Positions 22,116-50,640 of a DNA stretch of 64,000 nucleotides are shown piece by piece. Below the pieces are notes generated by a model. The model did no database searches, was not told the origin of the DNA, and worked only from the letters and a program-made list of their open reading frames with translations. The DNA lies in NCBI GenBank assembly GCA_900299185.1, contig OMIV01000070.1, positions 1-64,000 on the forward strand, written 5' to 3'. The position numbers and the translations under genes are program-made. Position 1 is the stretch's first letter, and each line of letters starts with the position of its first letter. This DNA comes from Planctomycetaceae bacterium (lineage in GTDB: Bacteria; Planctomycetota; Planctomycetia; Planctomycetales; Planctomycetaceae).

Positions 22116-22536
22116 TTTAGGATTTCTATGGTTTTGCAAGAAATCTTTGGAACTCTCGGAAATAGCTGCTCGTCTCATGGTGATCCCGGATGCGATTCTT
22201 GTGAATCCGCGTTTTTAGAGATCTAAAAACCGCAACCGACCTTAGTTGTCTGCCAGGTTGTTTGGCTCTTGGGACGTTGATGAGTCTTAAAAAGTTCCGC
22301 CGACTTGGGTGTTACGTCGAGAACGAATGAGTTCGGGTGGGTTTTCGACCAAATCGCTAAACACCTCAGCGGCGGTTTCTTGGCGGATCGAGTTGGATGC
22401 CTTGCAGTTAGGTTTCCAATCCGATTGTTCGTCAATAGAGTTTTGTGGTAGTTTTGCTGATAAATTGCAGTTCGATTCGCATTTCTCTCGTCTTCTCATC
22501 TCTCGGCTCTTCAGCCACCAATCGGAGTTTGCTGTC
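22116..22536. other. Intergenic region upstream of the pilus operon, 421 bp, with a near-palindrome
   Basis: This region separates the 340-aa gene from pilM. An AT-rich near-palindrome, GTTTTTAGAGATCTAAAAAC at 22211-22230, has two 9-base arms around a 2-base centre. It could be a weak terminator or an operator; no other element stands out. The pilM frame is open upstream to 22309, but the reading there is not protein-like. Confidence 0.35.
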
Positions 22537-24768
22537 ATGGCAGAAAATCGAGGCGTCTGGGGTATTGATATTGGTCAAGCAGGCCTCAAGGCGATTCGGC
22601 TTAAATATGCTGAGAACGCCAAGCAAGCTCTCGCGGTTGCGTTTGATTACATCCCGCATGCGAAGTTGCTGAGTCAGCCGGATGCCAATCCCAAAGAGTT
22701 AATTCAGCAAGCGCTGCAAACTTTTCTGTCTCGAAATGACATCCGTGGAGATCAGATTGCAATCAGTCTTCCCGGAAGTACCGCTTTGGCACGGTTTATT
22801 CAATTGCCACCGGTCGAAGAGAAGAAGGTTGCTGACGTCGTAAAGTACGAGGCTAAACAGCAGATCCCTTTCGCACTCGAAGACGTGATTTGGGACTTCC
22901 AGACGCTCGGCGGTGGAATCGTTGAAAGCGGTTTCATGCTCGGGGCTGAAGTTGGTCTGTTTGCGATGAAGAAGGAGCAAGTCGCCGATGCTCTACGACC
23001 ATTTGACGAAGCGAAGGTCGAAGTTGAACTCGTACAGATTGCCCCTCTCGCGTTGTATAATTTTATATGTTATGATCATTTTGGTGTCCGACTCGGCAGC
23101 GATGAGGGGACTAGCCAAGACTTCCACGTCGTTCTTGATATGGGAACGGATAATACGACGTTGTTGGTCACGAACGGAGAAAAGATTTGGATTCGTAATG
23201 TGCCGATTGGTGGAAACCACTTCACGAGAGCTTTGCTCAAGGAAATGAAGCTCACGTTTGCGAAAGCTGAGCATCTTAAATGCAACGCTACGAAATCTCC
23301 TGATCCGCGTGCTGTCTTTCAAGCGCTGCGTCCAGTCTTCAACGATTATGTCGCCGAAATTCAGCGTTCGATTGGTTACTTCTCCAGCGTAAATCGCGAT
23401 TGTCAGATCACGAAAGTCATTGGAGTTGGTAATGGTTTCAAGCTAGCGGGGCTCCAAAAGTTCTTGCAGCAAAACCTGAATTACGAAGTAGAACGCGTCG
23501 AGACGTTCCGGGCCGTGATTGGTGATACCGTTCTTAGCGCGCCGGTATTCCAAGAGAACATCATGGCCTTTGTGGTGCCTTATGGCCTGGCATTGCAAAC
23601 ACTCAACATCACTAAGATTCATACAACATTATTGCCGCCGGAAATTGCACGTGCTCGGCGTATTCGACGAAAGAAACCTTGGGCGTTGGTGACTGCTGCG
23701 TCGTTGCTTGCTGGTCTAGCGGCCTCTTCTGCTGGTTATGCGAATGTCAGCAAGTCGGTGAGTACAGCTAGATTTGGAACTCAAGAAAAGTCTGTTGCCG
23801 ATCTGAAGAGTACCGTCAAAGGTGGTCAGGATAAGTACGATGGAGCGAAAGGTGAGCACCAGAAGTTGGTGGTTGCTGGTGAGTCGCTTATCACGTATGT
23901 TGATACTCGTGAACTTTGGCCTGAGCTTTACCGCACAATCAACGAGTGCCTGCCTCGGCTTACGACGAATCAAAATGACATTCGGGATCCTCGAAAGCTC
24001 CCGATTCTTTACGTTCGTAGTGTGACAATGAAAAAATATACGGACACCAAACAGTGGTTTGATGGTCTGTTGCCAACGTTTAAGGACTATCTGAGAGAAG
24101 AAGAGAAAGCTGGTCCGACCGGTCCGGGCTACGTGGTTACGCTGAGCGGCACTCATTACTTCGAACAAGAAGATCCATGGCAATTGGTGAGGGATGGTTT
24201 CATCAAGAATCTGGAGAAGGATTTTCACAAATCAGAACTGAGTGAAGGTGGCATGGTCCCCGTTCGGCATCTCGGCGTTTCGCACGCACTGCTTGGGGTG
24301 CACATCAATCGGAAAACTATGTGGTATCCAGGTGGGCCACCCAAAGGTGGGGCTGGGGCACTCGGAGTTGGATTCCCAATGCCACAAATAACTCCCATGC
24401 CCATGGCAACTGGACCCGGTACTGGGGCAGACGGCAATAAACCATCGAACCAGCCGGTCGAGATTGAAGAGCATGTCTTTGACATTCAGTTTGTTTGGAA
24501 GCCAACTCCTGTAAAAGAGCGAAAAGCTCCTGTGGTTGCGACTCCTGTTGCTGACCCGAATGGAGTGACTCCCAGTGGTGTCGGGACTGGAGAATTGGGG
24601 GCACCGGGAAGTGGCCAGGTGCCAGCCGCAGGGACGCCAGTTGGAACATCCAATGGACTGTCCGGGGCATCAGGGGGGGCTGGAGTTCCGCCAAATTCGG
24701 TTCCGCCAGGTGCCCCTGCAACGGGTGTAACGCCGCAGCCGGTTCCCCAGCCAACGATTGGGCAATAG
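22537..24768 (+). CDS. pilM: PilM-PilN fusion-like type IV pilus assembly protein
   Basis: The start is ATG at 22537 (MAENRGVWGIDIG); the frame is open further upstream but those residues are not protein-like. The protein has 743 residues. Residues 1 to about 350 form an actin-like ATPase as in PilM: 'GIDIGQAGLKAIRL' (phosphate 1), 'VVLDMGTDNTTLLV' (phosphate 2) and 'IGVGNGFKLAGL' (adenosine motif). A membrane segment follows at about 380-398, then a coiled-coil and a PilN-like alpha/beta domain. The C-terminal 150 residues are Pro/Gly-rich and disordered-looking. PilM binds the N-terminal tail of PilN, so a covalent fusion is a plausible way to fix this pair. It begins a three-gene operon. 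Confidence 0.8.
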   Translation: MAENRGVWGIDIGQAGLKAIRLKYAENAKQALAVAFDYIPHAKLLSQPDANPKELIQQALQTFLSRNDIRGDQIAISLPGSTALARFIQLPPVEEKKVADVVKYEAKQQIPFALEDVIWDFQTLGGGIVESGFMLGAEVGLFAMKKEQVADALRPFDEAKVEVELVQIAPLALYNFICYDHFGVRLGSDEGTSQDFHVVLDMGTDNTTLLVTNGEKIWIRNVPIGGNHFTRALLKEMKLTFAKAEHLKCNATKSPDPRAVFQALRPVFNDYVAEIQRSIGYFSSVNRDCQITKVIGVGNGFKLAGLQKFLQQNLNYEVERVETFRAVIGDTVLSAPVFQENIMAFVVPYGLALQTLNITKIHTTLLPPEIARARRIRRKKPWALVTAASLLAGLAASSAGYANVSKSVSTARFGTQEKSVADLKSTVKGGQDKYDGAKGEHQKLVVAGESLITYVDTRELWPELYRTINECLPRLTTNQNDIRDPRKLPILYVRSVTMKKYTDTKQWFDGLLPTFKDYLREEEKAGPTGPGYVVTLSGTHYFEQEDPWQLVRDGFIKNLEKDFHKSELSEGGMVPVRHLGVSHALLGVHINRKTMWYPGGPPKGGAGALGVGFPMPQITPMPMATGPGTGADGNKPSNQPVEIEEHVFDIQFVWKPTPVKERKAPVVATPVADPNGVTPSGVGTGELGAPGSGQVPAAGTPVGTSNGLSGASGGAGVPPNSVPPGAPATGVTPQPVPQPTIGQ

Positions 24769-35613: not shown

Positions 35614-36219
35614 TTACTGGAGTGCCCGGACTTCGTCAGCTCGTCTTGTATTCACCGCGACGGGTACTGGTGCTCGAAGATTGCACCACCAAATCTCGGA
35701 TAAACGAGGCAGGAGAATTGGCAGGTAGGCATCGAGTGTGTCGGTCGCAGCGAGGTCTGCTGGGGCATCGACTGACTTGGCGAAGATCACTCGATCGAAG
35801 GGCCAATGGATCGACAACCAAGCTGCAATTGAATCGCTCGTGACATGCCAGCCTGCAGGCAAAGTGTTACATCCATCGGCGATGAGTTCCTCGATCAACG
35901 AGCATGCATCGAGAATTGGAGTTCGACCCGTACTCCAGGCAACTTCGACTTCGTAACGAGTCCAACAATGCTTGGTTCCTGAGATCAGTTTTTCGGCGAA
36001 GGATGCGGTGAGGCTCATGGCCTCAATCGCCAATTGATGAGATTCGATTGGCGTCAGTTTGAAAGTGCGATCCCACTCTCGCACTGCGTCAGCAGCTTCG
36101 GCACCGCCGATGAGCAATGCCACTCGATCGTCATTGCAACTCTTGATCAACTGCTTGATCCGAACTGCGAGATCTGGGAACGACAACAGGCTGCCACCGA
36201 CTTTGATGACCGAGCTCAT
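35614..36219 (-). CDS. Amino-acid-kinase-family protein (possibly MfnE-like)
   Basis: The start is placed at ATG 36219 (MSSVIKVGGSLLS), since the upstream extension to 36339 is not protein-like. It gives 201 residues. The AAK-fold phosphate-binding strand is VIKVGGSLL, followed by VALLIGGAEAADAVREW. Close relatives include UMP kinase, glutamate 5-kinase and the archaeal MfnE of methanofuran synthesis. A small AAK-family protein is, as I recall, among the genes found with H4MPT-linked C1 clusters in methylotrophs. With fae and the methylene-H4MPT dehydrogenase 23 kb away, a cofactor-synthesis role is plausible but unproven. The upstream 231-aa gene ends 37 bases before it. Confidence 0.6.
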   Translation of the reverse strand: MSSVIKVGGSLLSFPDLAVRIKQLIKSCNDDRVALLIGGAEAADAVREWDRTFKLTPIESHQLAIEAMSLTASFAEKLISGTKHCWTRYEVEVAWSTGRTPILDACSLIEELIADGCNTLPAGWHVTSDSIAAWLSIHWPFDRVIFAKSVDAPADLAATDTLDAYLPILLPRLSEIWWCNLRAPVPVAVNTRRADEVRALQ

Positions 36220-36256
36220 CGCGACGTCTTTCTGAGATGCTTCGTCGAGACGACGG

Positions 36257-36952
36257 TTATCGCGACCAGGGCAGCAAGCCTTTTTCACGCAACTCCTGAA
36301 CGTTGCCGGGGGTACTGGCCATGATTCGCTCGGTCGCAAACTTCATCACTGCGACACCTGCGAGTCTCGCCGGAGCGCTGAGGATCGCGACTCGATCTTC
36401 GTCTTCGCTATCGAGCTGCCGATTTAGCTTGGCGACGACTTCCTCAACGCTGTCGCTGACCAGCTTCTCTGGGCCCGAACGATTCGTCAGCTTGAGGTTC
36501 GAGAACAACGAAGCTCGCCGCGCGAGCATAAAGTCGATGATGCCTTCGTCCCCGTCTTGTTCTTCGAAGAAGTCTCGAAACTCGGGGTGCATGTTGTCCG
36601 GAGTGAGGATCAACGGGCGAGCAATCTTCACTTCGCCCTTACGAACCTTGACCATGCCGCCTTGCTTGTCGGGAGCGCAGACTAAGTAATACGGCAGGTC
36701 GGAATCCCCGAAGGTGAAGAGTGTGTATTCGATATTCCGCTCGATACGCACCGAACTCCACAAGCGACGGAAGTGAGATTCGTCTTCATAGTCAGGGAAG
36801 AGCATTTCAAACCCAATTGGTGTGAAGACTGTTGCGCCCGTCCCTGGGCCAAGACCTGGTATTGGACTCTCTGAGTCACCCACTGAACTCTGCAATGGGA
36901 GTTGCTCTGCGATCCCAGTCTTATAGCCACAAATACTTGTAGAGGAACTCAA
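36257..36952 (-). CDS. Conserved protein of unknown function (about 231 aa)
   Basis: The frame gives up to 231 residues and overlaps the HlyD gene's end by 32 bases. Start uncertain: the first 48 residues look less structured, and an ATG at 36805 (MLFPDYEDESHFRRLW) is an alternative without a ribosome binding site. The core from residue 50 is well mixed alpha/beta, with YTLFTFGDSDLPYYLVCAPD, then VKIARPLILTPDN and a helical tail. I do not recognise a family. It lies between the GAF-HlyD fusion and the amino-acid kinase in a same-strand run. Confidence 0.55.
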   Translation of the reverse strand: MSSSTSICGYKTGIAEQLPLQSSVGDSESPIPGLGPGTGATVFTPIGFEMLFPDYEDESHFRRLWSSVRIERNIEYTLFTFGDSDLPYYLVCAPDKQGGMVKVRKGEVKIARPLILTPDNMHPEFRDFFEEQDGDEGIIDFMLARRASLFSNLKLTNRSGPEKLVSDSVEEVVAKLNRQLDSEDEDRVAILSAPARLAGVAVMKFATERIMASTPGNVQELREKGLLPWSR

Positions 36953-38966
36953 TCACGTCGCCGAATAGCACGTAACCTAACGGCTTCAGACCGCAGTTGA
37001 TCTTGGCTCGAACCTCTGCGCCGATGCGCGGACCACGCGGCAGTTTCTCGGGATCGATTGATGCGAAGAAGACGACGACCGCGCCTTTCTCTTCGGATGG
37101 ATTGGTTCGAGTCGCCATCTCGCCGAGAACGCCGTTGAATGTTTTTTCGGAGTCCGTCGCCAATACGAACTCAACTGGAAGCTCTGTGGTATTGAGAGCC
37201 TTTTGAGCGTCGATGATGTGGCCCATGCGATGGTCTTGGACATCCAGTTCCAGTCGCCACTGTTGTTTGTCGTCCTTGATCTCCAGCAAGACTTCGCCAC
37301 GTCTTACGGGGCGGTTCTGCAGAAGTTGTTTGATCTGGAAGGTGGAAATGATGCCGTCGATTGGTGACTTCACATGCAGCGAGTCGATGCGCTCGCCGAG
37401 GACCGCACGTTGCTGAATCAAACCCTCGATTTCAGCCGCGTTTTGCAGGAGTTGGCCGTTGAGTTTGTCGCGTTCGGTTTGGTCGACGGTGCGTTGTAAT
37501 TGTGCTTCCAGCCCGGCTCGCACAGCGTCTTTAGCCGCGAGGTCGGTACCTGCTGCAACGAACTGTTGATTGAGTTCCTTGTTTTCGATGACGAGCAATA
37601 AGTCGTCCTGTTTCACGCGCTGGCCACTATCAACTTTGATATCGATAACGTCACCGTCCCAGGGAGCGAATACGTCCTTCTGTACCACCGGCATCATGCG
37701 GCCTTCGCCTTCGACGCGGTAATCCCACTGCACGAGCCACAGGGCTGCGAGCGTTAACAGCACGCCGATGACAGCCAGGCCGGCCTTCATGCCGTTTTTG
37801 CCTTCGAGCAACGTCCACGCTTTGCCGAGTTTGACCCAGACCGGCATCAAGAAGATGCGGTGGTAGCGCTTGGCGTTGAAGATTGCCGAGCCAACGTGGT
37901 CCGCGATCAAGTCGGCTTTGTCGACGACTCCCGGCTTGGGCTGACTCTCTGAAACTTGCTCGACGATGATTCCGCCTACTGCCTTGCGAACCTTCTCTTT
38001 GGGGCGAGCTCGATCGTCGTCCTTCTTGATGAGTTCATCCGGTTCAAATACCGGAATGACCATCACCATGCGCGAACCGCTCTCTTGGATGAAGTCCCCC
38101 AAGACCTTCTCGGTCTTCGGTGGCAGTTGCTCGATCTTGCCCGAGTAAGCCAGTTTTTCGCCGGTGGAGATCACATCTTGAGCGAGGTCGGTCAGCTTGC
38201 GAACGAGGTTCGCTCGTTGATTTACAGACTCTTGCCCGCTGATGGCGCGAATGACGGCTTTCTTACCATCGAGCACCGCGACGCTCATGCGATCGCAACC
38301 CACAAGCAGGCGACCATCGTTGGCAGCAGTGAACGCGACTTCGCGAGGATCCAGCGACTTATGCAGTTGAAGAATGAACTGCTCGAACTCTTCGGCCACC
38401 TTACCAACGGTGACTCCGTGGTCGTGCTGTTCGGAAGCTTGTCGATCCAGAAATCGACAGGCGTAGCCCGTCATTTGCTCGACGAACTGAAGAAAACCCG
38501 GCCGCGCCGCCTTGGGTGTGTCGGCTCTTTGGAAGATCTCGACGACACCGACAACCTCTTTGTTTTGCTGCAGAGCGGCCAGAACCAACATGTCTTCAGT
38601 GGGGAGTTCGGCCTGCGTTTCGCCGGGTTGATAGGTACAGGCTTGGCCGTGCGACAGCACTTCCCCCAACAACTTCTGATTGGCAGACAACGCGTTAGGG
38701 CTGTTGTTGAAGCCAATCTTGTCGAGATTCTGCTCGACCAGTAACTCAATCCGGTTGGCATTGCTCTTGAGCCACACGGCGCCAGCTCGCGCACCAACGG
38801 CCGCGATCACTCGCTTCAGAAATTCGGTGAAGAAGATCTTGGGAGTCAGGTCTGACTTCTTGGAGTACTCCTCAATTTCGCGAGCCAGTTGAATGATCTT
38901 CTCGCGGACTGCTCTGACGGGATCGTTGTCATTGTCAGGAGTTGGCGGGGCTTTGGGCGATGACAT
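36921..38966 (-). CDS. GAF-domain / HlyD-type membrane fusion protein
   Basis: A 681-residue protein. The N-terminal 350 residues are cytoplasmic, with two GAF-like regions (about 40-175, containing ARAGAVWLKSNANRIELLVE, and about 195-350, containing LLVGCDRMSVAVLDGKKAVI). One membrane segment at about 396-414 follows (GLAVIGVLLTLAALWLV). Then a HlyD/RND-adaptor periplasmic part: the first lipoyl-like half with 'VFAPWDGDVIDIKVDSGQRV', a helical hairpin (about 465-535), the second lipoyl half with 'VKSPIDGIIST', and a beta barrel. GAF domains usually sense small ligands. The fusion suggests an export adaptor whose assembly is ligand-controlled. No exporter permease or TolC-like gene lies next to it in the window. 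Confidence 0.85.
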   Translation of the reverse strand: MSSPKAPPTPDNDNDPVRAVREKIIQLAREIEEYSKKSDLTPKIFFTEFLKRVIAAVGARAGAVWLKSNANRIELLVEQNLDKIGFNNSPNALSANQKLLGEVLSHGQACTYQPGETQAELPTEDMLVLAALQQNKEVVGVVEIFQRADTPKAARPGFLQFVEQMTGYACRFLDRQASEQHDHGVTVGKVAEEFEQFILQLHKSLDPREVAFTAANDGRLLVGCDRMSVAVLDGKKAVIRAISGQESVNQRANLVRKLTDLAQDVISTGEKLAYSGKIEQLPPKTEKVLGDFIQESGSRMVMVIPVFEPDELIKKDDDRARPKEKVRKAVGGIIVEQVSESQPKPGVVDKADLIADHVGSAIFNAKRYHRIFLMPVWVKLGKAWTLLEGKNGMKAGLAVIGVLLTLAALWLVQWDYRVEGEGRMMPVVQKDVFAPWDGDVIDIKVDSGQRVKQDDLLLVIENKELNQQFVAAGTDLAAKDAVRAGLEAQLQRTVDQTERDKLNGQLLQNAAEIEGLIQQRAVLGERIDSLHVKSPIDGIISTFQIKQLLQNRPVRRGEVLLEIKDDKQQWRLELDVQDHRMGHIIDAQKALNTTELPVEFVLATDSEKTFNGVLGEMATRTNPSEEKGAVVVFFASIDPEKLPRGPRIGAEVRAKINCGLKPLGYVLFGDVIEFLYKYLWL

Positions 38967-39200: not shown

Positions 39201-40454
39201 CTATTCGTTGTCCGCGTACTGAAGCTGTACTTCGACGATCTCTTTGGAACGTCGGAAGAAGGCGTCGAGCACTCGCGGGTCGAATTGAGTGCCGCGTTTC
39301 TCTTCGAGCATCTTGAAACACTTCTCGCGGGGAAACGGAGCCTTGTAGGGCCGCTTGCTTGAGAGAGCGTCGTAAACGTCGGCAACTGCAGTGATGCGTC
39401 CTTCGATCGGAATGTCTTCGCCAGCGAGTCCCAGTGGGTAGCCTTGTCCGTTCCACCACTCATGATGAGTTAGCGCGACTCGCGAAGCCAGACGCATGAC
39501 CGGCGAGGACTTCACATTCATCAGCAACCCACCGAGTTCCGTGTGATGCTTAAGTGCGTTCCACTCACTTTCTGGCATGCTGCTAACGATCTTGTTTCCG
39601 AAGCCGCAATGGCGTTGCATCATGGCGTACTCTTCGGGGTCGAGCTTGCCGGGCTTGTGCAAAATGGCATCTGGAATGCCGATCTTACCGACATCGTGAA
39701 GCTGAGCAGCTTGCTCCAAAGCGTCGACTTGGTGGTCGCGGAAACCGAGTTCTTTGGCGATGAGTCCAGCGAACTTGCCAACGCGAATCACATGATGGCC
39801 GGTGTCGTTGTCACGGAATTCCGCCGCGCGAGCCAAGCAGTAAATGATTTGTTTGCGGGACGCGGCGAGTTCTTCTGTGCGGCGGCGAACTTGTTCTTCG
39901 AGGTCTTCTGAGTACCGCGACAACATGTCGAAGTGAGACTTTGCCGCCAGCACGTTGCGGACTCGCAGAACCAGCTCATGAGTCTCGACTGGCTTCGAGA
40001 GGAAGTCGGTTGCTCCCAGTTCGAGGGCTTGGACTTTGATGTTCGCTTCGGGAGATGCTGTGAGGATGACAACAGGAATATGCGACAGCTCACGGTCGTG
40101 TTTCATCGTTCGCAAGATGTCGAGGCCACTGACTCCCGGCATCATTACATCGAGCAACACAATGTCGGGTTTCTCATCGCGGACGACTTTGAGAGCCTTG
40201 TCCGACTCAGTGAGCGTCAAGAAGTTGGAGTATCCACTGTGCTGTAAGAATTTCTTCACGACGAGCATGTTATACGGCTCGTCATCCACGATCATGATCT
40301 TCGCATCTTGCGTGAAGAGGTCGGGTTTGGGGTGAGGCGACTCTCGCGCTGTGCCCGATGAATTGGTTGAGAGTTCATCGAGTCCGAGCGAGTTCAAGGT
40401 CTCGTCCAAACTGACGACCGGTGTAGTGGGGCGGCGGGTAACTGCGGCAACCAT
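39201..40454 (-). CDS. Response regulator with HD-GYP phosphodiesterase domain
   Basis: The start is placed at ATG 40454 (MVAAVTRRPTTPVVS), with GGGAAG upstream; 417 residues. A receiver domain runs from about residue 50 (KIMIVDDEPYN) with the phospho-acceptor Asp in DIVLLDVMMPG and Lys in LSKPVE. A coiled linker (about 175-205) connects to the HD-GYP domain: HDVGKIGIPD, then ALTHHEWWNGQGYPLGLAG, the GYP motif. HD-GYP domains hydrolyse cyclic di-GMP to pGpG or GMP. So this is a two-component output that lowers c-di-GMP, controlling motility or attachment. The histidine kinase is not adjacent; the kinase at 50.8-51.9 kb is a candidate only. A terminator follows. Confidence 0.93.
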   Translation of the reverse strand: MVAAVTRRPTTPVVSLDETLNSLGLDELSTNSSGTARESPHPKPDLFTQDAKIMIVDDEPYNMLVVKKFLQHSGYSNFLTLTESDKALKVVRDEKPDIVLLDVMMPGVSGLDILRTMKHDRELSHIPVVILTASPEANIKVQALELGATDFLSKPVETHELVLRVRNVLAAKSHFDMLSRYSEDLEEQVRRRTEELAASRKQIIYCLARAAEFRDNDTGHHVIRVGKFAGLIAKELGFRDHQVDALEQAAQLHDVGKIGIPDAILHKPGKLDPEEYAMMQRHCGFGNKIVSSMPESEWNALKHHTELGGLLMNVKSSPVMRLASRVALTHHEWWNGQGYPLGLAGEDIPIEGRITAVADVYDALSSKRPYKAPFPREKCFKMLEEKRGTQFDPRVLDAFFRRSKEIVEVQLQYADNE

Positions 40455-41750
40455 GACAAGCTTCCCGAGGTCCAGGGCCTCATTGGTGCAACGTTGAAGC
40501 GTTCGTCGCACAAGTCTCAAGTTGCGTCAGTGAGACGTGAGTTCAAGCGGCCTACGCGATGAACTTCACAGAACGCCGTACATCGACGCGACTCCTTGCT
40601 CATGCCCGAGTGTGACGATGTGACGCTCAACCATTGGTCAAGTTTTCGACTTTCAGCGTTAGGCATTTTGGGTGAGTCCAATTTGTCTCATTCGGTCGGT
40701 CTAGTTGATGGGGTTGTGATGATCGATCCAGTCGTTGGGGTGGAGACATGAGGCGATTTCCGTCCGTTTGCGGTCGCACATCGGCTCGTTACGATCCCGC
40801 CCGCTTCAAACGGCGGAAGAATTGCATCGCAGCACGAGGGTGTTACGGGCAGTTTGGAAGACGGTTGAAGATTCCAATCCGCAGCCTCTCGGAGACGGAA
40901 AGTCTTTGGGCGGCACGGTGGAAGAGCGGTTTCGATCCGGGCGATTGTGGGCTCGGACGTCTTTCCCTGACCAAGTTATGTTGTTGAACCGATGATGGTT
41001 CCTTTGCAAACAGTCGCGCTCGCCCTAGCTGGCCTGCTGTTGCTGATCGTTCTGACCTTGTGGTCGCGCTGTGCGCGACTCGGTCGTGGTCTCGTTCCGG
41101 CGGTCGTTCTCTTCGATCGATCCGTGCGAGGTTCGCGAGTTGGTCAGGTTCAGCAGTGGTTTGGCTCGTGCCGGTGGCATCCGTGGCTCGCCAACCGGCG
41201 TCGCTCATCTGAGGATGGGCGAGACTCGGGCGGATGGCGAGAGCGGGTTCGGATCGCACTGCTGCCATAACGCTAGGTCCGCTCTGCCACTGTGCCACTC
41301 GGTCATCGTCCTTATTCCTTTCGGTATTGGATGACCGAGCCGAAGTCTCGTCCGACTCCAGTTCGGCATTTTCTCCGGTCTTGTCTTGAGATGTTTGGCG
41401 AGTCTCATCCCTTTCGATGTGACTCGATCATTGAACTTTGACTGGTATGGCACTCGTAACTTGAGGCGCTACGGCGACTCGAAGTGACGTGGCTTTACCG
41501 AGTCTGGGCTCAATGAATGCTTGCACGGCCTTGTTGATCCGCGCGAGTCGTGACTGGGTGATTCGTCTCTTCATAGAGTTGGTGTGACGAGCGAATTCAT
41601 ACCGGTCGCGATCTCGGTTGGTCGGCGGTCGCGAGCGTGAATGACGTCGCGAGATAGGACTGGTGAGTGCTGAATTCTCTGTCTCGCCGCCGCAGCCTCG
41701 CGCGGACAGTGAGAGCGGCTGCGTCCTTGGGCTGATAAGGGACGCACTCA
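40455..41750. other. Gene-poor region, 1.3 kb, with inverted repeats
   Basis: The longest apparent gap in the window. Several open frames cross it, including a 92-codon plus-strand frame at 40992-41270 with a hydrophobic start (TVALALAGLLLLIVLTLW), but the rest of each translation looks random. Inverted repeats: CTCGGTCATC at 41299-41308 with its complement at 41330-41339; and TGCGTCC at 41720-41726 with GGACGCA at 41740-41746, covering the rny ribosome binding region. No tRNA was seen. It may hold a non-coding RNA or a decayed gene. Confidence 0.4.
41720..41746 (+). promoter_or_regulatory. Hairpin over the rny ribosome binding site
   Basis: TGCGTCC (41720-41726) can pair with GGACGCA (41740-41746). 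The 3' arm and loop include the AAGGG that lies about 10 bases before the rny ATG at 41751. Folding would hide the ribosome binding site. This would suit autoregulation of an RNase gene, but this is inference from pairing alone. Confidence 0.35.
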
Positions 41751-46611: not shown

Positions 46612-49600
46612 ATGGACGCTCGCTTGTTGGAACTGCTGGATGAAGTGGTGCGGCGGACTCGAACCCTGAAGGCTCGTCGCGCTGCGATTGCTGTTTGGTG
46701 TTTGGCGTCGACTCTGTTGCTTGTCGCTGGTGCCGCACTCAAGACGTGGCCTGTGGCTCTTCATGCGGCTTCGATAGCGAGCCTTGTGACTGCGGGTATT
46801 GGCCTCGTGCTGGCTTACCGGGGGGCGAGAGCGACCGCTCAGGATCGACTCGATGCTGCCCGCTTGGTTGAAGCCACTCATCCCGAATTGAAGCAACGCT
46901 TGCTGACGTTGCTTGAACAACGGCCCGATTCAGAAAGCGGGCAATTCAATGTCTTGCAGAGGCAGTTGCAGCACGAAGTTTTGACGCAAGCCGAAGTCGG
47001 TGATTGGACTGAGTGTGTTCCGGCGGCGTCGTTGAAGAGCAGTCGCAATCGCACCATCGTCGCGATGCTGACCTGCTGCGTGTTGTTCGGTTTCTTGTGG
47101 CGATCTGATGCCAGCAGCTTATTGCCTTCGAGCGCTCCCGATGTTGTCTCGACGTCCGCTGCAGTACCAACAGAGCCGGTGACGACTGTCTCCATCGAAC
47201 CAGGAAACACCGAAGTCGAACGCGGCAGCAACGTGCTGGTGCTGGCTCGATTTGATGGACCGTTGCCTGCGGCTGTGAGTCTGATCAAAGACGATCCGAA
47301 GGCGGGTGAAGTGCGGATCGACATGAGCAAGAGTCTCGACGATCCCGTCTTCGGTGCTCGGATTCCGAATATCGAACGAGCCTTTCGTTACCGCGTCGAA
47401 TTCTCCGAGGGCCGATCAGAAAACTATGACGTCGGTGTGTTCGAGTACCCGAAAGTTGAACGCGTCGATGCGCGGATCGAATTCCCCGACTACACCGGGC
47501 TCAGCGCCGAAGAGATTCCTGATACCTGGTTGATTTCGGCTGTTGAAGGTGCGACGGCGACGCTCGTTTGTCATCTCAATAAGCCGATCGCCGAGGGTTC
47601 GTTGGTGAGCAGTGACGGCGAACGGTCGTTTCCGCTGACGGTCGCGCCGTCTCAGGCAAAGTCGGTCGAGGGAGCCGGCGAAAAGTCTGGCGTGCAGATG
47701 TTGGTGAAGGTTCCGATCAGCAAGTCGATGAAGCTGCGATTCGAGCTCAAGGACGATCGCGATCGAGAAAATCGAGAGCCGGGTGAAGTCCGAATTACAG
47801 CACTTCCGAATCGCCCCGCAGATGTGGTTGTCACATTTCCGGCCAAGGACCAAAGAGTCTCGCCGCTGGAAGAAATGCAGCTAGAAGCAACGGTGTGGGA
47901 TGACTTTGGCGTGAAAGATCACGGCTTGATTCTGGCTGTGGGTGATCGTCGGCCGGTGTCGATCTCGCTTGGCAAGGACGCTCCTGCCAAGCAGAAGACG
48001 CAACTGAAGCATTTGGTGTCGTTAGAACTACAGAAGGCCGAGCCTGATCAGCTCGTTTCCTACTTCTTCTATGCCGACGATATCGCGGCCAACGGAAAGA
48101 CGCGTCGGACTTCGTCGGACATGTTCTTTGCGGAAGTTCGGCACTTCGAAGAGATCTTTCGAGAAGGCGAACAGCAACCCAATGGGGCGAGTGCTCAGCA
48201 GCAGCAAAAGGGCGACAGTCCTCAGGCCAACGCGGCTGAGAAGTTGGGCGATCAGCAAAAGCAGATCATCAACGCGACATGGAAAATCATTCGTCGTGAG
48301 ACCGGCGATGAGTTGACCGCCACGTTTGCCGCCGACGTGAAGCAGGTGCAAGAGGGGCAGCAGAAGGCGATTGAGGCACTCGATCAATTGATAGAGACGC
48401 TCTCCGACACAAAGTCGAAAGCACATGCCGACATTGCCAAGAAATCGATGATCGCGGCTGATGTTCAATTCAAACTCGCGATTGACGGGCCGGTTCGCGA
48501 TCCACTCACTCCCGCGTTGACGTCGGCGCGAGCAGCTTATGAAGCATTGCTCAAACTGCGGGCTCGCGAACATCAGGTGCAACAGAAGCAAAATGGCGGC
48601 GGGCAAGGGCAGGGCTCGGTTGGTCTCGCTCAGCAGCAGCTCAATCAGTTGGAACTCGACGCTAAGAAGAATCGCTACGAGGCCGAGCGAAAGGCGAATC
48701 AACAGTCGCCTCAAGCCGCCGCAAATCGTGAGCAATTGCAAGTTCTGAATCGTTTGCGTGAGTTGGCTCAGCGTCAGTCCGATGCCAATCAAAAACTCAA
48801 GGAGTTGGAGAGTGCGTTGCGAGCTGCCAAGGACGATGCTGAGAAAGAAGAATTACAGCGACAACTCAAACGCTTGCGTGATGAGCAGCGCGACTTGCTC
48901 AACAACGTCGACGAGTTGCGCAATCGCATGGACAAGCCCGAGAATCAGCCGCAGATGGCGGACTCGCGGCAGCAGCTTGAAGAAACTCGTTCGCAAGTGC
49001 GTCAGGCGTCCGATGCTTTGGAGTCGGGAAAATTACAGCAAGCCTTGAATAGTGGGACTCGGGCCGAACGCGAGCTGCAGCAGCTTCGCGATGAATTCCG
49101 TCAAAAGGCTGCCGGGCAATTCAATGATGCGATGCGCAACTTGCGTCAGCAGGCGAAGGAGCTGTCTCAAAAGCAGGACGAGATCGCTCAAGCTCTGCAA
49201 GATCCCAATGCACCGCGTAAGGACGCGGGCAAGCCTGACGGTGAGAAGACTGAAGGAAGTCAGAACTCACGTTCGAAGACCGATACTTCGAAGCCTGGCG
49301 AGTCGAAGCCCACTGAATCTCAATCGGGTCGCGAAGCACAAAAACCTGGCGGAGCCGACACCACTAAGCCGGGTAACTCGCCGAAGCCCAATCCCGCTGA
49401 TGATGGGAAATCGAATGGGTCCGATGTCGCGAAATCAGATCCAACCAAGAGGGAACCCGCGAAGCGTTCGTTGCGATCGCAGTCAGACAATCGGCAGCAG
49501 TTGACCGACGAGTTGAAGCAGCAGCGCGAACAATTTGATCGAGTGATGGAGCAGGCTCGACAAGTTGTAGAACAAGCTGAGAGCACCGAGCCGACGTTGG

Positions 49601-50640
49601 CGAAGGAACTTTACGAGACCGTTCGTAAGTCTATTTCGGATCGTCCCGGTGAGGCGTTGGATGTGACTCGCGAGTTACTGCGTCGAGGGCTGACCAATGA
49701 TGCTCGACAGACGGAACAGATCGCCAACCAAGGTCTCGATCGGCTGCAAGAAGGCATCGACAAAGCGAGCAAACTTGTGCTTGGCGACGAAGTTGAATCG
49801 CTCAAGCGAGCCCGTGAGCAAGTGCGTCAATTGAAAGGCTCTGTGGCCGATGAGGTCGCTCAGAACGATCCCAAACGAGCCGCGAAGTCACCTTCCGGCG
49901 CGGCTGAATCCAAAGAGCAATCCAATCAGTCCGGCAATCAGCCCATGCCTATGAACCAGACCGGCAAACAACCGGGTCAGCAACCGGGTCAACAACCAGG
50001 TCAGCAACCAGGTCAGCAACCAGGACAGCAACCAGGACAACAACCAGGACAACAACCGGGACAACAACCGGGACAACAACCAGGTCAACAACCAGGTCAA
50101 CAACCGGGACAGCAACCGGGACAGCAACCGGGTCAGCAACCAGGTCAACAACCGGGACAGCAACCAGGACAACAACCAGGTGGCGAGGGGCGAAGGAGTC
50201 CGGGATTACGTTCGAGTTCGCCGAACGGACGTCGTGGAAGTACTGGGCCAGCTGCTGAAACATCTGGCGGGGAAGAGCAGCCGGGTGGAGTTGGGCCTGT
50301 GAATCCGATTACAGGGAAGGGCTTCAACGAGTTCACGGATCAACTTCGTGAAGTCGAGGAGTTGGTGAGCGATCCGAAGTTGCGAGCTGACATCGCACGA
50401 GTGCGTGAGACGGCTCGGTCGATGCGAGCGGAATTTAAGCGACACTCGAAGGCTCCCGAGTGGGAGTCGGTCAAGATGCAAATTTCTCAGCCATTGGCCG
50501 AGATTGAACGTCGCATCGCTGAGGAAATCACTCGCCAGCAATCTCCAGATTCGTTTGTGCCGCTCGACAAGGACCCCATTCCAGATCGATACAGCGAACT
50601 CGTCCGCAAGTACTACGAACGATTGAGCCAAGGGAAGTAG
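46612..50640 (+). CDS. Giant DUF4175-like membrane protein with coiled-coils and a PGQQ minisatellite
   Basis: A 1342-residue protein. Two N-terminal membrane segments lie at about 20-40 and 48-66, with a third hydrophobic stretch at about 145-160. A beta-rich periplasmic part (about 190-490) contains repeat-like Ig strands. From about residue 520 to 930 it is almost all charged coiled-coil rich in Gln, Glu, Arg and Lys. A Ser/Pro/Lys linker (about 870-960), more helix, and a Gln/Pro/Gly tandem array (about 1120-1191) precede a short helical end. The layout resembles DUF4175 proteins. GGAG precedes the ATG by 9 bases. It completes the DUF58/BatA group. It may be a long spacer between membrane and other layers; this is inference. 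Confidence 0.8.
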   Translation: MDARLLELLDEVVRRTRTLKARRAAIAVWCLASTLLLVAGAALKTWPVALHAASIASLVTAGIGLVLAYRGARATAQDRLDAARLVEATHPELKQRLLTLLEQRPDSESGQFNVLQRQLQHEVLTQAEVGDWTECVPAASLKSSRNRTIVAMLTCCVLFGFLWRSDASSLLPSSAPDVVSTSAAVPTEPVTTVSIEPGNTEVERGSNVLVLARFDGPLPAAVSLIKDDPKAGEVRIDMSKSLDDPVFGARIPNIERAFRYRVEFSEGRSENYDVGVFEYPKVERVDARIEFPDYTGLSAEEIPDTWLISAVEGATATLVCHLNKPIAEGSLVSSDGERSFPLTVAPSQAKSVEGAGEKSGVQMLVKVPISKSMKLRFELKDDRDRENREPGEVRITALPNRPADVVVTFPAKDQRVSPLEEMQLEATVWDDFGVKDHGLILAVGDRRPVSISLGKDAPAKQKTQLKHLVSLELQKAEPDQLVSYFFYADDIAANGKTRRTSSDMFFAEVRHFEEIFREGEQQPNGASAQQQQKGDSPQANAAEKLGDQQKQIINATWKIIRRETGDELTATFAADVKQVQEGQQKAIEALDQLIETLSDTKSKAHADIAKKSMIAADVQFKLAIDGPVRDPLTPALTSARAAYEALLKLRAREHQVQQKQNGGGQGQGSVGLAQQQLNQLELDAKKNRYEAERKANQQSPQAAANREQLQVLNRLRELAQRQSDANQKLKELESALRAAKDDAEKEELQRQLKRLRDEQRDLLNNVDELRNRMDKPENQPQMADSRQQLEETRSQVRQASDALESGKLQQALNSGTRAERELQQLRDEFRQKAAGQFNDAMRNLRQQAKELSQKQDEIAQALQDPNAPRKDAGKPDGEKTEGSQNSRSKTDTSKPGESKPTESQSGREAQKPGGADTTKPGNSPKPNPADDGKSNGSDVAKSDPTKREPAKRSLRSQSDNRQQLTDELKQQREQFDRVMEQARQVVEQAESTEPTLAKELYETVRKSISDRPGEALDVTRELLRRGLTNDARQTEQIANQGLDRLQEGIDKASKLVLGDEVESLKRAREQVRQLKGSVADEVAQNDPKRAAKSPSGAAESKEQSNQSGNQPMPMNQTGKQPGQQPGQQPGQQPGQQPGQQPGQQPGQQPGQQPGQQPGQQPGQQPGQQPGQQPGQQPGQQPGQQPGQQPGGEGRRSPGLRSSSPNGRRGSTGPAAETSGGEEQPGGVGPVNPITGKGFNEFTDQLREVEELVSDPKLRADIARVRETARSMRAEFKRHSKAPEWESVKMQISQPLAEIERRIAEEITRQQSPDSFVPLDKDPIPDRYSELVRKYYERLSQGK
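49969..50181 (+). repeat. 12-bp tandem minisatellite encoding (QPGQ)n
   Basis: Seventeen whole 12-base units plus a partial one, each CAACC(A/G)GG(T/G/A)CA(A/G), coding Gln-Pro-Gly-Gln without interruption. Units vary only at third codon positions, so the protein repeat is perfect while the DNA is not. Units can be gained or lost in steps of four residues without a frameshift. Antisense frames across the array are artefacts. Confidence 0.95.

Follow-up and report, generated by a model that had tools for sequence, protein, structure and literature searches.

The GAF-HlyD gene is located on the minus strand of the window (the whole 64,000-nucleotide stretch of DNA analyzed here), at positions 36921–38966. 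The open reading frame starts with an ATG codon, contains no internal stop codons, and encodes a protein of 681 residues. This protein has two GAF domains, a single membrane helix, a periplasmic adaptor of the HlyD/MacA type, and a C-terminal amphipathic helix, in this order. No exporter or channel gene adjoining it is found in the window.

The gene directly upstream, on the same strand (39204–40520), encodes a response regulator with an HD-GYP-type HD_5 domain, a candidate c-di-GMP phosphodiesterase. Proteins of the same sequence cluster are encoded near GAF-HlyD in two other loci (L017 and L019), at other positions. An amino-acid-kinase family protein is encoded at 35617–36339 (minus strand), and its sub-threshold match to MfnE (54 bits, with a cut-off of 300) hints at a methanopterin-type C1 pathway. 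On the plus strand, positions 46612–50640 contain an ORF of 1342 residues with no Pfam matches, adjoining DUF58 and BatA/VWA genes.

The downstream gene, c3 (36260–36805, minus strand), is a neighbor of GAF-HlyD in the nearest homologues only (L006–L011 and L029). In the window and in L006–L008, L010, L011, and L029, it lies downstream on the strand of GAF-HlyD, as would be expected if GAF-HlyD and c3 formed a two-gene functional unit. However, 22 of 25 genomes in the family carry c3 as a single copy, it lies elsewhere in the genome in others, and it is also present in two genomes (G002 and G004) that have no GAF-HlyD match. This distribution rejects c3 as a partner in the system and already largely refutes the two-gene unit, which we consider extremely improbable. 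The AF2 model of c3 (pLDDT 39) is too poor for use.

Domain organization of the GAF-HlyD protein

The first GAF domain (residues 42–150; 38517–38843, minus strand, as for all parts of the protein) is recognized by a Pfam GAF_3 match over residues 50–149 (E value 2.7e-6), and in two homologues (L071 and L031) by PF01590. The second GAF domain (residues 206–346; 37929–38351) is under the Pfam threshold in the window protein and is found by Pfam at the same place in homologues, where PF01590 covers residues 194–354 of L023, residues 195–325 of L012, and two stretches of L074. With sequence profiles, the first domain has no matches in the Protein Data Bank, and the second has weak matches to sensor-kinase GAF structures alone (best E value 0.015). 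The AF2 model of the protein has a mean pLDDT of 83, and its pTM of 0.39 makes the packing of the domains unsure. Both regions show the canonical GAF topology in this model, with a helix of about 50 residues between them.

The membrane helix (residues 392–411; 37734–37793) is hydrophobic in sequence and helical in the AF2 model. Lysine residues flanking its N-terminal side suggest that the N terminus is inside and the C terminus outside. Roughly 390 residues are located ahead of this helix, rather than the 350 or so given in the preliminary description.

The periplasmic adaptor (residues 412–661; 36984–37733) has a Pfam HlyD_3 match over residues 532–640 (E value 3e-10). The top matches to the model in a Foldseek search are MacA (2.2e-14), AcrA, and MexA. 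The predicted fold of this part contains the lipoyl, hairpin, and barrel elements, with MacA and AcrA as the nearest structures. MacA, AcrA, and MexA share this fold with the periplasmic half of GAF-HlyD, but are without the cytoplasmic GAF pair. The two-helix hairpin (residues 463–528) has 30 residues in each arm in the model. In a crude test with a regular expression for RLS-type TolC docking, RxxxL(6)S/T, the adaptor hairpins of the window clade give no match, with one exception. The chain ends in the conserved amphipathic helix (residues 662–681; 36924–36983).

Among 17 close homologues, pairwise identity averages 61–66% in the GAF half, 50–57% in the barrel and lipoyl parts, and 31% in the hairpin. 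Conservation is highest over residues 656–681, which include the C-terminal helix, with an average of 76%.

Pfam, the AF2 model, and the homologue matches therefore agree on two GAF domains and an HlyD adaptor in one protein, as had been proposed for this gene. This confirms an intact, real gene in which two cytoplasmic GAF domains are joined to a periplasmic adaptor. A fusion of two separate genes by chance or by a frameshift, which had been named as a possible refutation, is ruled out by collinear, full-length homologues at 44–70% identity. Homologues with the same architecture are found in 26 planctomycete loci, and full-length ones are met again and again across Planctomycetota, which makes the fusion an old and selected one rather than a sequencing artefact. 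A plasmid search with GAF-HlyD gives only weak matches, at the level of HlyD.

Loci in relatives and probable partner genes in the window genome

The architecture of GAF-HlyD is already known. Kamneva, Poudel, and Ward reported it in 2015 as recurring in SecA2/M50-HlyD loci, together with a secondary SecA, an M50-peptidase-HlyD protein, and HlyD; GAF-HlyD is present in most of the loci and a TolC-type/OEP gene in some (PMC4452313). The partners lie elsewhere in the genome in some cases, and the authors termed the biological role of the loci completely unknown (PMC4452313).

The loci in the relatives of the window gene have the same components, and the SecA2/M50-HlyD/HlyD/TolC system is found in planctomycetes and some other bacteria. 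From 44% identity downwards, homologues of GAF-HlyD are located beside SecA2, the short HlyD, M50-HlyD, or TolC, and those at 43–48% identity are linked to TolC/SecA2 or to HlyD/M50-HlyD. A contiguous set is found in distant planctomycete families (L110–L112, L115, L116, and L118), and OEP flanks the homologues in L023–L027. A GAF-HlyD match is present in 18 of 98 planctomycete genomes, and every one of these 18 has M50-HlyD as well (Fisher 7e-15). The short HlyD of one locus (L071, 10360–12255, in genome G027) is fused to WD40 repeats, in a protein of 631 residues.

The preliminary description had named an M50 peptidase, TolC, and an ABC exporter as neighbors to look for beside orthologues. 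The first two are found there, the peptidase in the form of M50-HlyD. In comparison, the scanned neighbor clusters that recur beside homologues contain no ABC or RND transporter families, including the ABC partner that classical type I membership calls for; an MFS-like Nuc_H_symport cluster is located beside a few homologues. These neighborhoods bear on the explanation that GAF-HlyD works with a conventional tripartite pump (ABC, RND, or MFS) whose genes lie elsewhere, its GAF domains being an allosteric ligand switch. Such a pump would be in keeping with an adaptor fold nearest to those of MacA, AcrA, and MexA, but SecA2 and M50-HlyD recur in place of the ABC and RND families, and we consider it very unlikely.

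The window genome has three GAF-HlyD genes (the window gene on C70 and those on C94 and C156), three M50-HlyD genes (C14, C173, and C156), and three genes for a secondary SecA/SecA2 (C357, C179, and C156). A short HlyD is located upstream of the C14 copy of M50-HlyD. The sole complete contiguous locus of the genome, on C156, includes OEP. The gene on C94 (positions 22210–24246 in genome G000; 9205–11370 of L031) is a second GAF-HlyD paralogue, at 33% identity, and Pfam misses its HlyD part. It comes after genes for a transglutaminase-like membrane protein and a DUF58-like protein, and not after any secretion gene.

In the GAF-HlyD tree, the window protein is located in a clade of 26 rows (SH-aLRT 99), with proteins of G013, G016, G019, and L023–L027. 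The M50-HlyD protein of C14 groups with the partners from G013 and G016 (95/92), which adjoin GAF-HlyDs of the window type. In the SecA2 tree, the C357 protein groups with those of L023–L027 (98/96), which also adjoin window-type homologues, and G019 is one fork further out (88/90). From these trees and the copy numbers, we infer that the window protein would partner the M50-HlyD of C14 and the SecA2 of C357, genes that are unlinked here. The HlyD on C14 belongs to the same tree-matched set, and TolC is not among the assigned partners. The gene adjoining the C357 SecA2 was considered as TolC and rejected, with Pfam identifying it as a PSD4/planctomycete cytochrome protein.

The window protein thus combines GAF and HlyD/biotin_lipoyl domains, and its genome contains a tree-congruent secondary SecA (C357) and M50-HlyD (C14). 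The window has no secondary SecA, M50-HlyD, or HlyD in the same locus, a linkage that is typical of the system and not strictly required. Membership of the window protein in the SecA2/M50-HlyD system is highly probable. The earlier remark that no exporter is adjacent holds for the window itself, but is misleading, as the missing partners are encoded elsewhere in the genome. Because of these dispersed partners, and because a GAF-HlyD match is present in 38 of 40 relatives, the window protein is a split-off subunit of a putative export system rather than an adaptor without an exporter. Our main reading, with a probability of roughly 75%, is that it is the GAF-HlyD subunit of a SecA2/M50-HlyD/HlyD/TolC export system with a dispersed, matched set of genes. 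Against this reading count the unlinked partners in this genome, the missing TolC in the assigned set, and an adaptor hairpin in which the crude expression recognizes no TolC-docking motif. The domain set is the same as in the 2015 system; the window set differs in that its genes are dispersed and that the genome has three such sets.

Alternatively, the window copy could have left the secretion system and become a lone membrane-anchored sensor, in which a ligand bound by GAF alters the periplasmic HlyD part, or the reverse, and which signals the state of the cell envelope. In the window clade, the gene is unlinked from any partner, and conservation of the GAF half equals or exceeds that of the adaptor. 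Moreover, the GAF gene of M. extorquens AM1 is expressed while the other genes of its operon are nearly silent (PMC4452313). On the other hand, the tree-matched M50-HlyD and SecA2 are kept in the same genome, the homologues at 43–48% identity have linked partners, and the best conserved part of the protein is the C-terminal end of the adaptor. A lone sensor is therefore unlikely.

RTX proteins with an N-terminal LExRxLL region

RTX-repeat genes are located near the GAF-HlyD loci in L012–L015, L018, L024–L027, L090, and L112. This neighborhood was judged on RTX-poor genomes, because it is weak on its own in RTX-rich genomes, as most planctomycetes here are; the window genome has 212 RTX repeat matches. 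In G014, which is a single contig, all four RTX matches are in one ORF, the only RTX ORF of the genome. It is located directly upstream of the SecA2/GAF-HlyD/HlyD/M50-HlyD locus, and its protein also matches the NCBIfam model LEPR-XLL (NF012209). In G019 and G033, the RTX genes lie far away from the loci and are unlinked to them.

A basic N terminus followed by the motif [LFV]ExRx[LVIM][LVPM] (to be called LExRxLL) is present in 16 of the 18 RTX ORFs of the window genome, counted with the second form of the expression, which was loosened after the first 20 sequences had been viewed. The motif is also found in 2 of 120 other long ORFs of those sequences, both of which had been fetched for that motif. 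A simple hydropathy test of the first 90 residues finds no Sec-like hydrophobic stretch in any of the 16 RTX ORFs. LExRxLL recurs on the RTX proteins of G010, G013, G014, G019, and G021, with variants in G028 and G033, and the RTX proteins without it in this check of other genomes are mostly contig-edge fragments or have variant motifs. The RTX proteins from the window genome in L131–L149 share the basic N-terminal region ending in LExRxLL, and this region may mark a general export leader of planctomycete giant proteins.

The curated LEPR-XLL model is over its cut-off in 11 of 98 planctomycete genomes, and 10 of these 11 have M50-HlyD (Fisher 1e-6). The co-occurrence is weaker by family (7 of 8, p=6e-4). 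G127, with LEPR-XLL and no M50-HlyD, is a counter-example, and LEPR-XLL is not over the cut-off in 14 of the 24 genomes with M50-HlyD. The motif and the export system could share lineage history.

Judged from these sequence associations, the system may export large calcium-binding RTX surface proteins. That the LExRxLL proteins are its substrates has, in our estimate, a chance just short of even. The link to LExRxLL and RTX is added by the present analysis: RTX and PqqD are absent from the text of the 2015 report, which proposes no substrate (PMC4452313). A literature search found no papers on the combination of PqqD, M50, and HlyD, and only unrelated ones on LEPR-XLL.

Proposed mechanism and comparison with other systems

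The residues of the M50 site (HExxH and N-N-P..D-G) are invariant in 15 sequences, and proteolysis is for this reason probably part of the job of the system. The M50 half of the C14 M50-HlyD resembles the Daptide and YydH-LiaK intramembrane HExxH metalloproteases (NF041824 and NF058609). It matches NF041824 with an E value of 1.9e-54, at a score (185 of 300 bits) that is far under the equivalog cut-off, and it differs from these proteases in being fused to HlyD.

In the export complex that we infer, SecA2 would drive translocation with ATP, taking the role that the ABC transporter has in type I secretion. M50-HlyD, a multi-pass protein, would serve both as the component in the inner membrane and as an intramembrane protease, possibly a leader protease. 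The short HlyD, GAF-HlyD, and M50-HlyD would together form the periplasmic adaptor ring, and a TolC-type protein the exit duct. The tandem GAF domains in the cytoplasm could act through the membrane helix to gate or recruit the periplasmic ring, depending on a ligand or on SecA2. The cargo would be large RTX/adhesin-like proteins with the N-terminal LExRxLL (LEPR-XLL-type) leader.

The GAF pair is probably located next to SecA2 in the cytoplasm, where it would either sense a ligand or dock SecA2. A cytoplasmic sensing role is plausible, and the odds that the pair is a regulatory sensor appear evenly balanced. In a sub-variant of our main reading, the GAF domains are instead a structural platform for dimerization and SecA2 docking within the same system, and do not sense ligands. 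The long helices between and after the GAF domains are like those of dimeric tandem-GAF proteins, and SecA2, as a cytosolic ATPase, needs a partner for docking at the membrane, but a GAF architecture usually implies ligand binding. A pure docking platform is possible, with the odds leaning against it.

The export system of the main reading is similar to type I secretion (HlyB-HlyD-TolC) in its HlyD-type adaptor, the TolC-type duct of some loci, and RTX proteins as the candidate cargo. In contrast to type I secretion, the loci contain an additional SecA and a protein that joins an M50 protease to an adaptor, and no ABC transporter was found in them. Classic RTX toxins have a C-terminal signal, whereas the cargo here would bear an N-terminal leader.

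We tentatively propose, at somewhat less than even odds, that the SecA2/M50-HlyD/GAF-HlyD/TolC set forms a protein export pathway of its own for the giant surface proteins of planctomycetes. The pathway would recognize the basic LExRxLL leader of giant RTX/adhesin-like proteins without a Sec-type signal. SecA2 would replace the ABC transporter, the M50 protease might clip the leader, and the GAF domains would act as the switch. A candidate cargo class with an N-terminal motif, together with a parts list of the dispersed set, makes this role directly testable. The lasting value of the analysis lies in a class of candidate substrates for a secretion-like system that otherwise has no explanation. 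If the proposal is true, it would explain how the many large surface proteins of planctomycetes are exported when no ABC-type type I system is used.
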